This document shows positions 1,152-31,218 of a stretch of DNA of 36,918 bases, in pieces. The notes beneath the pieces were generated by a model, which ran no database searches, was not told the origin of the DNA, and saw only the letters and a program-made list of their open reading frames with translations. This DNA comes from a virus. Positions within the stretch are counted from its first letter, which is position 1. The number at the start of each line of letters is the position of its first letter. Made by a program: the position numbers and the translations under genes. Where the stretch lies: IMG/VR virus record IMGVR_UViG_3300036398_005182, positions 1-36,918 of that record. One strand, written 5' to 3'.

Positions 1152-1565
1152 ATGAACAAGACAATCGCAATGAAGTGGGTCAAGGCTCTTCGCTCCGGTA
1201 AGTACAAGCAGGGCGAGGCATATCTGTGTCAGATCACCAGCAAGGGCAAGAAGCACTGCTGCTTGGGTGTCCTGACCGAGATGTATCAGGCCGAGCAGAA
1301 GGCCAAGAAGAAGAAGGCTCTCCCCGCCAAAGTTGGCAAGATGTATCACGATGCCTCTTTCAATGTCGTGAAGTACGGCAGTGGTGAGTGTGCTGCTGAG
1401 GAACTTCCCCTTGCCGTCAAGCGTTGGGCTGGCATGGAGGGCAGACTTGGGGAGTTTGATGTTATGGACAAGGGCCACTATGGAAGCCTGTCGCACATGA
1501 ACGATGACGGCCACTCGTTCAAGAAGATTGCCAACTTCATCGAAAAGAACTACGAGAATCTTTAA
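1152..1565 (+). CDS. Conserved phage hypothetical protein (CCLGVL family), 137 aa
   Basis: The segments KWVKALRSGKYKQG (residues 8-21), HCCLGVL (about 36-42), LP.AV..WAG in the middle and the C-terminal SFKKIANFIE are the hallmarks of a hypothetical family often seen in phage accessory regions. Its function is unknown. The start is fixed by a promoter whose -10 lies 6 nt upstream. The stop TAA shares its last A with the ATG of the next gene (TAATG), so the two are coupled. Confidence 0.8.
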   Translation: MNKTIAMKWVKALRSGKYKQGEAYLCQITSKGKKHCCLGVLTEMYQAEQKAKKKKALPAKVGKMYHDASFNVVKYGSGECAAEELPLAVKRWAGMEGRLGEFDVMDKGHYGSLSHMNDDGHSFKKIANFIEKNYENL

Positions 1566-1982: not shown

Positions 1983-2276
1983 ATGACTGATTTCGACATT
2001 GTTGCGGGGCTGCGTTCACGCTCTGCGTGGTTCAAGCGAGAGGATATTGCCGAAGTGCTTGAGAATGCTGCTAATGAGATTGATCGGTTGAACGATAAGG
2101 TGAGTTTTGTTTGCGGCGATCTTGCTTTGCAGGAGATTAAACGGCTACGCAACGAGCGTGACGAGGCACGGCGGCGAATCTGCGAGATGCTGCATGAGGA
2201 AGGCTATGGTCGCTCTCCCAAAGAGTGGGCAAAGCGCAAGGGATGGGACTGCTTCAAGGAGAACACCAATGGATGA
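1983..2276 (+). CDS. Mosaic coiled-coil family protein A (DIV..LR / LRNERDEAR / GWDCFKEN)
   Basis: 97 aa from the ATG at 1983, which has AGGAG 7 nt upstream and starts MTDFDIVAGLRSRS like other family members that begin (T)DIVxxLR. A conserved coiled-coil core EIKRLRNERDEARR follows, then the C-terminal box KGWDCFKENTNG. An in-frame ATG at 1860 overlapping the previous stop would add a 41-residue Pro-rich extension; that stretch reads like protein, so both starts may be used. The last codons AAG GAG AAC ACC AAT also form the ribosome site and ATG of the next gene, an 8-nt out-of-frame overlap. Function unknown. Confidence 0.6.
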   Translation: MTDFDIVAGLRSRSAWFKREDIAEVLENAANEIDRLNDKVSFVCGDLALQEIKRLRNERDEARRRICEMLHEEGYGRSPKEWAKRKGWDCFKENTNG

Positions 2277-2601
2277 CAACACAGACATCGTTGAAAGGCT
2301 CAGGTCGATGTATTATGAGTTGAGCCGCAGGCAAGCATCCACCCCATTTGGGGAACGATCCGAACTGGACGGTATTCCTGCACTGCTATACGAAGCAGCC
2401 ATTAAAATCCAAGACCTACAGGGTAACGAGATTGAACGGCTACGCAATGAGCGTGACGAGGCAAGGTGCATGCTGTGCGAAGAGTGGGCAAAACAGGATG
2501 GTCTTCCGTTGGATTGGCAGGGTGCACGTGGAGCAGAGGGAATGGCAGAGTTTGTCGGCTGGGACTGCTATAAGGAAAACAAGGAGAACACTAATGACTA
2601 A
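2269..2601 (+). CDS. Mosaic coiled-coil family protein B, 110 aa
   Basis: Starts MDDNTDIVERLRSMYYEL, matching the DIVxxLR module of the neighbouring paralog. The core EIERLRNERDEAR and the C-terminal box GWDCYKENKENTND follow. The segment between them, including SGRS-free sequence FGERSELDGIPALLYEAAIK, is unique to this copy. AAGGAG in the tail of the preceding gene is its ribosome site. Its own tail encodes the AAGGAG for the following gene. Probably a small early or middle host-interaction protein; no function is known. Confidence 0.65.
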   Translation: MDDNTDIVERLRSMYYELSRRQASTPFGERSELDGIPALLYEAAIKIQDLQGNEIERLRNERDEARCMLCEEWAKQDGLPLDWQGARGAEGMAEFVGWDCYKENKENTND

Positions 2602-2776
2602 GACTAAAAATAAAACCGTCAAGACTGATACCGAAACCATCACCAAGATTTCTGATTTTGTTTGGGAACTTTCCACCGAAATGGATACCATTCGGGAACA
2701 GATGGAAGACCTCCAGATTCGGATGCTTTCCATTCGCAAGATGCTCCAGATCATGGAGAATCCCAAGAACAACTGA
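2594..2776 (+). CDS. Small coiled-coil protein, 60 aa
   Basis: Begins MTKTKNKTVKTDTETI, followed by one continuous predicted amphipathic helix (residues about 20-55, WELSTEMDTIREQMEDL and on). It overlaps the previous gene by 8 nt out of frame and uses that gene's AAGGAG. It ends 7 nt before tRNA-Ser. No family is recognised. Confidence 0.6.
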   Translation: MTKTKNKTVKTDTETITKISDFVWELSTEMDTIREQMEDLQIRMLSIRKMLQIMENPKNN

Positions 2777-2783
2777 TAGACTT

Positions 2784-2872
2784 GGACAAGTGGCAGAGTG
2801 GCTTAACGCGGCGGTTTGCTAAATCGCTGAAGGCAGTAATGTCTTCCGAAGGTTCGACTCCTTCCTTGTCCG
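2784..2872 (+). tRNA. tRNA-Ser (GCT)
   Basis: Acceptor GGACAAG pairs with CTTGTCC. The anticodon loop TTGCTAA reads GCT (codon AGC/AGU). The long class II variable arm GAAGGCAGTAATGTCTTCC is present, as expected for Ser. T arm GAAGG-TTCGACT-CCTTC. The discriminator is G and CCA is not encoded. Confidence 0.95.
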
Positions 2873-2921
2873 TTTATGATAAATATATCAGAGAAGTCAA
2901 TTATTCATAAGGAGAATTGAG

Positions 2922-3530
2922 ATGACTGAAATTAATACTAGAAAGCGTGATATCAAATCCCTAATCGCAAACAAACAGACCACCATTGAGAATGAACTTG
3001 ATAGTCTCATTGTGAAGGTCAAGCGTCTCACCAAAGAGCGCGACGAGGCTACCACAAAGGCCAATCTCTACAAGAAAGAGCGTGACGAAGCAAATACTAA
3101 GCTTGGGTTTGCATTACGAGATCTTGAGCGAGGAGAAATACAAATTACTTGCCCAAGTATTGAAGATAAAATTGATAGCCTTAGTGCAGAACGTGATGAA
3201 GCATTAAATGCCTTGAAAGTTGCTGCCGATTTGATTTCAACCATGCCGCAGTATGAATCTATGCACCCTGAGCAAGTGATGAATATGCTTATGCTTAAGG
3301 ATACTGCTCCGCTGTTTAAGTTGAGCCGTGGTTCTTATGCACAGAAAACCAAGGAACTTCTTGAAACCACCCGTGGTTTGAGCAGCACAACCTCAATTGG
3401 CAATCAAAAGATTGAGTGCCTGCGATCTCACTTGGAACTTGTAACAGAAGAGATGGAGCGTTACTATAATGCACTCACTCCTGCACAGCGTGAGAATCTT
3501 GCAAATTTAAAGGAGAACAACAATGATTGA
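2922..3530 (+). CDS. Mosaic coiled-coil family protein C, 202 aa
   Basis: AAGGAG lies 7 nt upstream of the ATG and a late-like ATAAATA lies about 30 nt further up. The N-terminal 110 residues are a long coiled coil with the repeated KERDEA motif three times. The C-terminal third (FKLSRGSYAQKTKELLETTRG, then LSST and IECLRSHL) is a near copy of the next gene's N-terminus. The last codons (LKENNND) double as the ribosome site and start of the next gene. No known function; it looks like a fusion of modules found separately in its neighbours. Confidence 0.7.
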   Translation: MTEINTRKRDIKSLIANKQTTIENELDSLIVKVKRLTKERDEATTKANLYKKERDEANTKLGFALRDLERGEIQITCPSIEDKIDSLSAERDEALNALKVAADLISTMPQYESMHPEQVMNMLMLKDTAPLFKLSRGSYAQKTKELLETTRGLSSTTSIGNQKIECLRSHLELVTEEMERYYNALTPAQRENLANLKENNND

Positions 3531-3813
3531 GTTCAGCCGTGGCAACTACGAACAGAAGAGCAGGCAGATTCTTGAAGCCACCCGTGGCTTGAGCAGCACC
3601 GACTTGGAGGGAACGCACCTAATTGAGTGCCTGCGATCACAGTTGTCGGCTGTTACCGAGGAGATCAAACGGCTTCGCAACGAGCGTGACGAGGCAAGGC
3701 GGGAGGTGTGTAGGGATGAGGCGTACCGTCCTTCTCCGTCACCACCATGCACGGCAAATCAGGTTGCAAATCGGCGTGGATGGGATTGTTTTAAGGATAA
3801 CACCAATGAGTGA
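3523..3813 (+). CDS. Mosaic coiled-coil family protein D, 96 aa
   Basis: The N-terminal module EFSRGNYEQKSRQILEATRG...IECLRSQL copies the C-terminus of protein C. It is joined to the EIKRLRNERDEARR core and the RRGWDCFKDNTNE C-terminal box of proteins A and B. It is therefore a direct link between the two halves of the family. Overlaps both neighbours by 8 nt out of frame. Confidence 0.7.
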   Translation: MIEFSRGNYEQKSRQILEATRGLSSTDLEGTHLIECLRSQLSAVTEEIKRLRNERDEARREVCRDEAYRPSPSPPCTANQVANRRGWDCFKDNTNE

Positions 3814-4009
3814 TACCGACATCGTTACATGGCTCCGTAGCATTCTGCACAACGACCGTTCCGTTGAATTGCGTTGTCAGGAAGCAGCCAATGAAATTGA
3901 ACGACTCCGCGAAGAACTGCGTGAATGCGAAAGCCTGCTTGATGAATATCGAAGAGTTGAAATGGACAGAGATAGATGGGACTCTTTAAGAGAGGACAGC
4001 AATGAGTAA
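3806..4009 (+). CDS. Mosaic coiled-coil family protein E, 67 aa
   Basis: Begins MSDTDIVTWLRSIL, the DIVxxLR module of proteins A and B, then EAANEIERLREELRECE coiled coil. The tail RWDSLREDSNE is a diverged form of the GWDCFKENTN box. The start sits in the AAGGATAACACCAATGA overlap at the end of protein D. Function unknown. Confidence 0.65.
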   Translation: MSDTDIVTWLRSILHNDRSVELRCQEAANEIERLREELRECESLLDEYRRVEMDRDRWDSLREDSNE

Positions 4010-4316
4010 GAAGATGACCAAAGAGCGTTGGAACTACCTCATGCAGCCTTTCGATGGCAATGAGGATGTCATGCTTACCGCAGAGGAACTGAACGAGGGA
4101 TGGCATTGGTGCGAGGAGTGGGACGGTCTGCTCATCCATGTGGATGACGATGAGTTTGTCTCATGCACCTGTGGCTTCATGGAGAAGTTCCGCACACCCG
4201 AACGCATCAAGGCAATGCAGGACAAGATTGCCAGATGGAAGGGACCGCAGGAAGCGATGCAGCGGCTTGCTGATTTGGATGAAGAGTTGGGGTTGAACCC
4301 CGGACAGGAAAAATAA
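4002..4316 (+). CDS. Hypothetical protein, 104 aa
   Basis: Starts MSKKMTKERWNYLMQPFDG and contains a Trp- and Cys-containing segment WHWCEEWDGLLI (about residues 33-44) and CTCGF (about 54-58). A small metal-binding or beta-sheet fold is possible. It is coupled to the preceding gene by the same type of 8-nt overlap with GAGGA as ribosome site. No known family. Confidence 0.65.
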   Translation: MSKKMTKERWNYLMQPFDGNEDVMLTAEELNEGWHWCEEWDGLLIHVDDDEFVSCTCGFMEKFRTPERIKAMQDKIARWKGPQEAMQRLADLDEELGLNPGQEK

Positions 4317-9290: not shown

Positions 9291-9800
9291 GTGATACTAA
9301 ATAATAATGTGAGAAAAAAACGATCCCCTATTTGGAAAATATCTAAAAAAGATTTAGTTAATATTGTTTCTTCATGTGATACATTTTCTTGTATATTGTC
9401 TAAATTTAATCTATTGAATAAAGGTGGTAATGTTAAAACTTTAAAGAATAGATTGTTGGAAGAAAAAATTGACTATTCTCATATCCCGGAAGGAAGGGGT
9501 TCAAATAAAAATAGAGCGAAAGGTTCAAGGCCACCAATAGACTTAAAAAAAGTTTTGATTAAAAATTCGACATATAACAACAGAAGAGTATTAAAAAATA
9601 GATTAGTAAAAGAAAAATATTTAAATTATGAATGTGGTGAATGTGGTCTAAAAAATATTTGGAATAAAAAATCCATCGTACTTCAGTTAGACCATAAAAA
9701 TGGAATTAATAATGACAATAGAATAGAAAATTTAAGATTATTGTGTCCCAATTGTCATTCACAAACAGACACATTTGCAGGAAGAAATTGTGGAGGTTAG
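9291..9800 (+). CDS. HNH homing endonuclease, GTG start
   Basis: 169 aa. The C-terminal third has the HNH core: CGECG zinc knuckle, then LQLDHKNGINNDNRIENLRL and LCPNCHSQT. The N-terminal half is Lys-rich and probably binds DNA. The gene is strikingly AT-rich next to its neighbours and its stop codon TAG lies inside the 5' acceptor strand of tRNA-Gln. This suggests insertion by homing just before, or into, the tRNA. GTG at 9291 is the first start; a second GTG at 9309 is possible. No Shine-Dalgarno is visible. Confidence 0.85.
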   Translation: MILNNNVRKKRSPIWKISKKDLVNIVSSCDTFSCILSKFNLLNKGGNVKTLKNRLLEEKIDYSHIPEGRGSNKNRAKGSRPPIDLKKVLIKNSTYNNRRVLKNRLVKEKYLNYECGECGLKNIWNKKSIVLQLDHKNGINNDNRIENLRLLCPNCHSQTDTFAGRNCGG

Positions 9801-9863
9801 TTCAGTTGGTAGAACGCGGGGCTTTGGTCCCCGATGTCGGGAGTTCAAATCTCTCACCTCCAG
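9791..9863 (+). tRNA. tRNA-Gln (TTG)
   Basis: Acceptor TGGAGGT pairs with ACCTCCA. Anticodon stem CGGGG/CCCCG with loop CTTTGGT gives TTG (codon CAA). T arm GGGAG-TTCAAAT-CTCTC. Discriminator G. Its first 10 nt overlap the HNH gene. Confidence 0.95.
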
Positions 9864-29244: not shown

Positions 29245-29247
29245 ATG

Positions 29248-29321
29248 CTCCTCGGGCTGGGATCGAACCAGCGACATGGAAGTTAACAGCTTCCCGCTTC
29301 TACCAGCTGAGCTACCGAGGA
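29248..29321 (-). tRNA. tRNA-Asn (GTT)
   Basis: On the minus strand: acceptor TCCTCGG pairs with CCGAGGA; anticodon stem GGAAG/CTTCC, loop CTGTTAA gives GTT (codons AAC/AAU); T arm GCTGG-TTCGATC-CCAGC. Discriminator G. It follows the ribonucleotide reductase by 7 nt. Confidence 0.95.
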
Positions 29322-29328
29322 TTGAGGA

Positions 29329-31218
29329 TCAGACTATCTGGCAACCGCCAGCACTGCAGGCATACTCCTTTGCTGCCTCAGTATTGTCTTCTGCTTCATA
29401 TTTAGACAGATCCTTGAAGTTAACCTTAACCTTTGGATGTGCCGAATAGGTAGCAGAATCAATTTGCTCAAATGGAGCCTGAGCGTATGTATGACTATCT
29501 CCACCAGGAAGGAACGAAATTCCTGTTGCCACATCAAAGTTTTCCCACAGCCACTGACCGACTTCAAGGAACTCAGAGTCCCTGTAGTTAACGGTGATTG
29601 ATGGCTTGTGGTGGCAATAGTGTTCCTGATATGTCTTCCACAGATCCAAGTGATCCAATGCACGGAGATCTTCCGTGGTGATTGTTCCCTTGGGGGCCTT
29701 CATCGCAAAGGTGAAGACCGCTGTGTTTCCTGGGTTGATAACATCATCTTCACAAGGAACGCCTTGATCCTTCATGAGATTGTAGATTGGATCCTTCTTG
29801 TCGATGCGAATTCTACGATAATAATAATCCGCGTATCTTGGGTGTAGCCCTGATGCAGAATCCACCAAACAAGAAGTTGTTCCCTCTGGCTTGACGCAAG
29901 TGATTGATTTGCTTGGATTGATACCAAGCTTTTCTGCCCACTTGAGATTGGTTGCAGTTGCGTGGTCGCGCAGGGTTTCAAGTAGACGGATCAACTTTGG
30001 CTTGCCTTCAAGACCACTGGTAAGTTTGTTGTCATATATGCCCGTCATGCTGACACCTAGCAATCTTTCGTCTTCACAGTTCTTCTTCCACTCTGGACGA
30101 AGGTACGGGAAGTTGGTGAATGTGGATTGAACAGTTCCTATGATCGTGGCAATCTCAATCTTCTTCTTCAAAGTTGCTGCAGTATCATCGGGACGAACGA
30201 CAACAGTTGAAAGATTGCAGAACTCAAATGGCTTGAGAATGATCTCCGAGCATGGGTTTGTTCCATACTCACAGTTTTCATCTCGGCCCCATTTGGCTGC
30301 TTGCTCTTGCAAGGCTCTCCTGTTGATCATTCCACGCTCACCGCTGTGGCTGTTGTACAGTGATGTCCACTCCTCAAGGAACTGACCCATCGGTGGGCGA
30401 CCACGATACACAGCAGAGTTATTTGCGTATGAGCGGAAACCAGCCTGCTCCCACCATGCACCACTCTTGCAGTGGGCCATCTCACGATCAGACAGATCGC
30501 TGAGAGAAATCATGGCAGAACGACGAACACCACCAACAATAACAGCATTGGCAATGGCACAGCAAATATCATGGCACTCAAGAGCAGTCAACTTGCGTCC
30601 TTGTGCGTTGTAAAAAACCTTGACAAGGAATTTAAACAAATTGTCAAGAGGTGCTGGACCACTGGCGCGGCCACCAAATGTCTTGAGTCTTGCGCCAGCA
30701 GGACGAATCTTGCTCAAGTCCCACTTGATGTGGCGACCTGCATATAGATGATCCATCAAGAACTTGACGGCATTGCCCCAGCCCTCCTTTGAATCTTCAA
30801 CAACGTAAGTCACGTTGAAGTGCTTCTCAATCTTGCTTGCAACTGTTGGAAGTTTGTCTGTGTATTGACGCTCAACAGAATAACCAACGCCAGTTCCATT
30901 CATGAGAACGACAAACAACTCAGCAAATGATTCAAGAGAATCGATTGGCAAATAAGAGCAATTGTACAAACAAGTATTGTCGTGGTCTAATGCTGGTCCA
31001 GCAGTCATCAGACTACGCATAGATGGAAGAACCTCAAGATTCAGAATTGCATCCTTTACATCAGGGCGTTCTGCAAGTTGAGGAACCTTGTTCGTAAAGT
31101 AATTCCACCAACGCTCCACGCATTCCTCCCAGCTTTCTCTGCGATTGTAATCAGGAAGCCATCTGGAGTAGCGTGAGATGAAAATAAACGATTGAAACGG
31201 TGATAAAATTTCTGCCAT
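29329..31218 (-). CDS. nrdJ: Adenosylcobalamin-dependent class II ribonucleotide reductase, monomeric type
   Basis: 629 aa. NPCSEIIL (about 321-328) supplies the N-x-C-x-E active-site triad and FCNLST the second active-site Cys, 11 residues on as in the Lactobacillus monomeric enzyme. NTCLYNC near residue 83 holds the partner redox Cys. The C-terminal YACSAGGCQIV gives the swinging Cys pair (621 and 626). CVKPEGTTSCLVDSASG is the conserved KPEGT block. It makes dNTPs from NTPs using B12, so it works without oxygen or iron. The protein is about 100 residues shorter than typical monomeric members. A Shine-Dalgarno AGGAG lies upstream; no cobalamin riboswitch is visible. Confidence 0.9.
   Translation of the reverse strand: MAEILSPFQSFIFISRYSRWLPDYNRRESWEECVERWWNYFTNKVPQLAERPDVKDAILNLEVLPSMRSLMTAGPALDHDNTCLYNCSYLPIDSLESFAELFVVLMNGTGVGYSVERQYTDKLPTVASKIEKHFNVTYVVEDSKEGWGNAVKFLMDHLYAGRHIKWDLSKIRPAGARLKTFGGRASGPAPLDNLFKFLVKVFYNAQGRKLTALECHDICCAIANAVIVGGVRRSAMISLSDLSDREMAHCKSGAWWEQAGFRSYANNSAVYRGRPPMGQFLEEWTSLYNSHSGERGMINRRALQEQAAKWGRDENCEYGTNPCSEIILKPFEFCNLSTVVVRPDDTAATLKKKIEIATIIGTVQSTFTNFPYLRPEWKKNCEDERLLGVSMTGIYDNKLTSGLEGKPKLIRLLETLRDHATATNLKWAEKLGINPSKSITCVKPEGTTSCLVDSASGLHPRYADYYYRRIRIDKKDPIYNLMKDQGVPCEDDVINPGNTAVFTFAMKAPKGTITTEDLRALDHLDLWKTYQEHYCHHKPSITVNYRDSEFLEVGQWLWENFDVATGISFLPGGDSHTYAQAPFEQIDSATYSAHPKVKVNFKDLSKYEAEDNTEAAKEYACSAGGCQIV

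Follow-up and report, generated by a model that had tools for sequence, protein, structure and literature searches.

The window analyzed here is a stretch of 36,918 nucleotides of viral DNA, and between positions 1983 and 4316 it carries genes A, B, s, C, D, E and F, all on the plus strand. Gene A (1983-2276) consists of a DIV head, an anchor coding for ERDEAR (2154-2171), which is the first recombination joint, a middle, and a GWDCFKEN tail in which a second anchor (GWDCFKE; 2241-2271) continues into the ribosome-binding site and the start of gene B. Gene B (2269-2601) has a DIV head, an anchor (2449-2466), a middle and a GWDCYKE tail (2557-2577), followed by the ribosome-binding tail AAGGAGAACACTAATG (2581-2596). 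Gene s (60 amino acids; 2594-2776) lies between gene B and a tRNA-Ser (GCT) gene within the array (2783-2873). Gene C (2922-3530) contains a long coiled coil and an RGLSST..IECLRS module (about 3307-3465), and it has no GWDC tail but retains the ribosome-binding tail. Gene D (3523-3813) combines an RGLSST..IECLRS head with an anchor (3682-3699), a middle and a GWDCFKD tail (3778-3798), and gene E (3806-4009) has a DIV head and a degenerate tail, RDRWDSLREDSNE, with the overlap layout retained. Gene F (4002-4316), which has relatives in other loci at 80-82%, is outside the family and is coupled to gene E by an 8-nt overlap. A sequence-only reading had placed the modules in five neighboring genes; the coordinates of genes A to E fit, but gene s had been overlooked, and gene E does not have a true GWDC tail.

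The A/B, B/s, C/D, D/E and E/F junctions have a common layout, with an 8-nt overlap of stop and start. A Shine-Dalgarno-like sequence precedes the ATG by about 8 nt and is part, in frame, of the coding end of the upstream gene; it reads AAGGAG at A/B, B/s and C/D but AAGGAT at D/E and AGAGAG at E/F. Because this layout is common to the five junctions, the '..KEN' tail doubles as the ribosome-binding site of the next gene. A repeat search of the window identified a block of 44 nt with copies at 2131, 2426 and 3659 (86-93% identical) and a tail block of 30 nt with copies at 2242, 2558, 3779 and 3975 (70-87% identical). Furthermore, genes C (3313) and D (3524) have a 76-nt block in common (78%) and, after it, another of 44 nt (3411/3622; 77%). 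Thus, gene D combines the last part of C with the core and tail of A and B, just as had been proposed. The module sharing is real and more extensive than had been described, and since it resides in nucleotide blocks, the likeness is not merely one of low-complexity coiled coils. Gene s is 100% identical in the contig L082, and its relatives in L006 and L043 have a GWDCFKEN tail that is missing from the window copy. This copy ends just 5' of the tRNA-Ser gene (2594-2873, plus strand), and it may be that insertion of the tRNA cut the gene and removed its tail.

Genes A, B and D belong to one family without a database name, characterized by a variable head, the ERDEAR anchor, a variable middle and a GWDC(F/Y)KE tail. 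Members, all from metagenome contigs, were collected by a scan with D (222 of 291 candidate stretches were relatives, and 80 were kept), a scan with A (23 relatives among 40 candidate stretches) and a search for the GWDC(F/Y)KE pattern (at least 120 matches). From 279 unique C-terminal fragments, 236 were parsed and 229 remained after removal of duplicates; the 43 fragments outside the motif patterns, which were left out, comprise chance matches as well as real variants, such as a form having no middle. The family therefore has at least 229 non-redundant parsed members on 153 viral contigs, 50 of which carry two or more. Alignment of 110 members shows no variation at R17, R21 and GWDC (110/110) and hardly any at E16, D18, E19, A20, R22, C25 and A44, although choosing members by motif patterns favors such invariance. 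When whole records were searched, 42 of 43 had a family match, with 13 matches in a 125-kb record and 11 in one of 10.7 kb. Only one of the 76 candidate stretches from genome_contigs was a relative, on L223, a contig of a betaproteobacterial MAG.

The comparison with related phages, which the sequence-only reading had suggested as a check, showed that heads and middles are recombined in differing combinations across these members. Two or more middles are paired with 28 of the 34 recurrent heads, and two or more heads with 37 of the 40 recurrent middles. Only 20 of 117 head-similar pairs are also similar in their middles; random reassignment of middles gave a mean of 1.1 and a maximum of 5 doubly similar pairs, and some linkage between head and middle therefore remains. 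Among the 95 members from tail-pattern loci, which were picked blind to head and middle, the middles were unrelated in nine of ten head-similar pairs. In different contigs, 90-nt heads that are 100% identical are followed by three different middles, and 100% identical middles are found on different heads. As for the window, the middle of gene A is present on another head in L010 (100% over 69 nt), the head of A is 99.4% identical to a head in L082 that has another middle, and the head of D occurs with several middles or is fused directly to the tail (L006, L009 and L010). The best outside partners of the heads and middles of A, B and D are scattered over several contigs (L082, L010, L033 and L002), and the best partner differs between the head and the middle of one gene. 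Of the 229 joints, 26 are found in more than one contig, and 19 of those are shuffled with respect to another member.

The clearest case is a clean segment swap between the window and L082, running from the ERDEAR anchor of gene A to the ribosome-binding tail of gene B. In the left flank (1909-2138), 229 of 230 bases are identical; identity then fades across the anchor (28/35 at 2139-2173), beyond which the sequences are unrelated (18/49). On the right, identity returns from 2580 onwards (429/435), while the match before that position is at chance level (12/46). The swapped segment measures 441 nt in the window, where it comprises the middle of A and all of gene B, and 173 nt in L082, where it contains another middle and lacks gene B. 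Together with the A middle held in common with L010, this swap bears out the earlier proposal of recent recombination between related genes.

Heads, middles and whole genes have been exchanged between phages, and similarity breaks at two conserved coding blocks. Anchored similarity profiles, for which pairs were selected for similarity on one side and dissimilarity on the opposite one, show how sharp the joints are rather than locating them freely. In a second test, every pair with near-identical heads was taken without choice by the other side: of 48 such pairs, similarity ended in the anchor in 35, in the middle in none and in the tail or stop in 10, and it continued in 3. Among 63 pairs with near-identical middles, 45 ended in the anchor or within 24 nt of it; for the other 18, similarity ended at -59 to -25 in one, at -149 to -60 in seven and at -398 to -150 in five, and it ran for at least 400 nt in five. 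Among 49 head pairs of equal length whose upstream DNA is unrelated, 27 show the head beginning at the ribosome-binding tail of the upstream gene. At the 16 joints for which both 'parents' were available, an exact common run of 18-26 nt was present in six and of 6 nt in one, and nine had none, so that older events or non-homologous joining fit as well.

The coupled layout extends to the family at large: a plausible next start was found in 207 of 229 members, none in 19, and in 3 it would lie off the contig end. The stop overlaps the next start in 195 of the 229 (109 at -4 and 43 at -8). As the choice of starts favored Shine-Dalgarno sites, the frequency of these sites is not independent. The dN/dS values, 0.19 for heads and 0.11 for middles, indicate working proteins that do not diversify via point changes. 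The earlier suggestion of diversifying host-interaction proteins finds no support here: point changes are under purifying selection, and no family match indicates what the proteins touch.

On these grounds, we consider it very probable that the window carries a translationally coupled array of cassette genes of an environmental tailed phage, exchanged at the anchor and tail blocks by short-similarity recombination. Each gene would be built of head, ERDEAR anchor, middle and GWDC(F/Y)KE tail, with the tail containing both the start of the following gene and its ribosome-binding site. Phage-driven homologous recombination at short similarities (about 18-25 nt) would swap the parts, in keeping with the UvsX-type RecA that the window encodes. 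An exchange at a block would keep the reading frame, and one at the tail would keep the downstream gene translated, so that recombinants would be expressed at once; selection would then retain those that fold. Shuffling by short-homology recombination is well supported, whereas the role of the anchor as a DNA signal is less settled. Breaks might instead occur at random along the genes, the joints appearing fixed because selection keeps an intact hairpin, in which case ERDEAR and GWDC would be conserved purely as protein. We regard this alternative as possible, though somewhat doubtful. Between unrelated members, the anchor has a pN of 0.04 and a pS of 0.63; it is thus conserved mainly as protein and need not be a dedicated recombination signal. 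In the AlphaFold2 model of the anchor-middle-tail part (pLDDT 93.6), which is predicted to form a helical hairpin, a long helix spans the anchor, and GWDC is preceded by a short second one. The nine joints lacking an exact run also agree with random breaks. On the other hand, random breaks do not explain why none of the 48 head pairs breaks within the middle, although middle length varies freely. Nor do they account for the strong codon bias at the anchor and tail, which is absent from the variable parts of the same genes: the last arginine of the anchor is AGG in 62%, against 8% in the background, and the identity of anchor DNA between unrelated members is 87.2%, against 76.5% expected from background codon use. 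Anchor third positions are also more alike within contigs (0/1000 permutations), which shared base composition could explain. We tentatively read the anchor as a protein motif that doubles as a handle for recombination.

It is improbable that homing endonucleases drive the swaps by cutting the conserved anchor or tail. The window does contain an HNH gene (9291-9800), 5.3 kb downstream, and nuclease genes at exchange boundaries have been reported in phages (PMC10448857). However, relatives of the two HNH proteins of the window were found in only 8 of 154 member loci, 6 of them within 3 kb, in a search of short loci for HNH only. Ancient tandem duplication and divergence within a phage, without exchange between phages, which comes close to the wording of the earlier reading, is very improbable. 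It would suit the tandem arrangement and the likeness of anchor third positions within contigs, but as a full account it is already contradicted by the 100% identical heads with three middles and the identical middles on other heads across contigs, and by the swapped segment between near-identical flanks of the window and L082. The earlier proposal of recombination between tandem duplicates thus holds for the recombination; given the scatter of best partners over contigs, the source looks more like a pool of segments common to many phages. Chimeras of metagenome assembly, in which unrelated genes are joined at short repeats, are scarcely credible even though every member comes from metagenome contigs and the anchor is a repeat, since nine of 16 joints have no exact common run, 26 of the 229 family joints occur on more than one contig (19 shuffled), the right joint of window and L082 shares only the run from 2580 (12/46 before it), and the frames are open with dN/dS of 0.11-0.19.

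Pilin antigenic variation by minicassettes likewise swaps variable segments between conserved blocks; the pilin system has a store of silent copies and a single expression site, whereas all genes of the window array look expressed. Diversity-generating retroelements make adenine-directed substitutions against a template repeat; this candidate was rejected, because the differences between cassette genes are whole unrelated segments. In domain mosaicism, as described in PMC10684548, otherwise unrelated phage proteins share fragments through recent exchange, and more such cases are expected among unknown accessory proteins. The cassette family shows the same common fragment with an unrelated remainder. 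The cut-offs of that study are a fragment of at least 50 amino acids, coverage of at most 50% in both proteins and a profile probability of 95%; the head of A makes up about half its protein, and its coverage is therefore borderline. The family differs in being one small family with two fixed joints, in which many heads meet many middles in coupled arrays. The Start-Associated Sequences of cluster K mycobacteriophages are a short repeat at many translation starts and a possible target of homologous recombination (PMC3203893). The cassette arrays resemble them in having a repeated sequence of ribosome-binding type directly 5' of many starts, but here the repeat lies within the coding end of the upstream gene, the proteins are homologous, there is a second, internal joint, and exchanges at the joints are directly seen. 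About half of the mycobacteriophage sites have an extended form with 17-bp imperfect inverted repeats, mostly spaced by 4-13 bp, and a repeat search revealed no pair of this kind beside the five starts of the window array. Finally, for phage recombinases PMC3945230 describes relaxed homologous recombination, in which short, diverged similarity is enough and the minimal exact pairing of Red-beta is 23-27 nt, near the 18-26 nt runs at six of the 16 cassette joints. The recombinases described there are Rad52-like annealing proteins of temperate phages, whereas the window encodes a UvsX-type RecA.

Phages from lakes and other environments carry rows of small genes composed of interchangeable fronts and middles, with swaps taking place at two short joints of fixed position, a compact natural system for recombining viral proteins. 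Phage mosaicism is usually observed gene by gene, without known joints, whereas both joints of the cassette arrays are fixed. The fixed joints, the small countable pieces and the near-identical natural recombinants make the arrays a test bed for in-frame shuffling at short similarity. The family also indicates that there is a large body of small, unnamed phage proteins, which may act on the host. Pfam and PHROG searches yielded no family matched by more than two of 110 members, and PADLOC yielded none. In 50,697 records of phage isolates, a tblastn search with A, D, E and two relatives as queries gave no match at E<=1, with a low-complexity filter on that may mask coiled coils. The exact motif strings did not turn up in published papers, and literature searches showed no account of the family. 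A sequence search of the PDB gave weak coiled-coil likeness only (best E 0.0071), and a fold search of BFVD gave two proteins of uncultured Caudovirales with 38-39% identity, one at TM 0.88 (E 0.025) and one at TM 0.75 (E 0.33), both by query length. The model of full-length D is of moderate quality (pLDDT 71.4). A single open frame at 3039-3491 of L223 contains two or more hairpin-domain matches, as do frames of 210 and 212 amino acids in G008 and G017; these are gene fusions within arrays. Any function of the proteins, host interaction included, is something we infer. The constant part might dock as a hairpin on a common partner or on itself, the head being a changeable activity against host functions or defenses during infection, an idea that we put forward tentatively. 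Still less likely, in our opinion, is the most far-reaching interpretation, namely a combinatorial cassette system of lytic environmental phages in which heads and middles from a common pool are joined in frame at two fixed coding blocks. These blocks would be retained both as handles for recombination and as ribosome-binding sites, and every phage population would obtain new small proteins, probably for host takeover or counter-defense, as if from an open library.

The UvsX and the T4-type helicase of the window are nearest to those of Methylophilales, Pelagibacter and Synechococcus phages (54-59%), and the source of the window is therefore likely to be a T4-like phage. The carriers of the family differ: close relatives of UvsX (56-93%) are encoded in 8 of 20 large records, while 2 others match weakly and the remaining 10 not at all, and a relative was present in 5 of 50 smaller records, which as fragments may miss the gene. 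Typing by terminase (PF03237) gave no useful information, with 3 of 20 records above the cut-off. UvsX-bearing contigs (11 members on 7 contigs) and UvsX-lacking ones (12 members on 8 contigs) have only one middle in common, at 85%, which is too little to claim exchange between the two lineages. Several other features of the window deserve mention. The gene upstream of the array (1152-1565, plus strand) matches phrog_18067 (E 7.8e-20), a PHROG without a functional name. At 9291-9863 (plus strand), the 3' end of an HNH endonuclease gene overlaps a tRNA-Gln gene. A permuted tmRNA lies within the phage contig at 15713-16111 (plus strand; Rfam RF04321, 80.9 bits), with the tag ANEMAMAA according to ARAGORN. 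At 29247-31218 (minus strand), a class II ribonucleotide reductase gene with a B12-dependent insertion domain has a tRNA-Asn gene next to its end.
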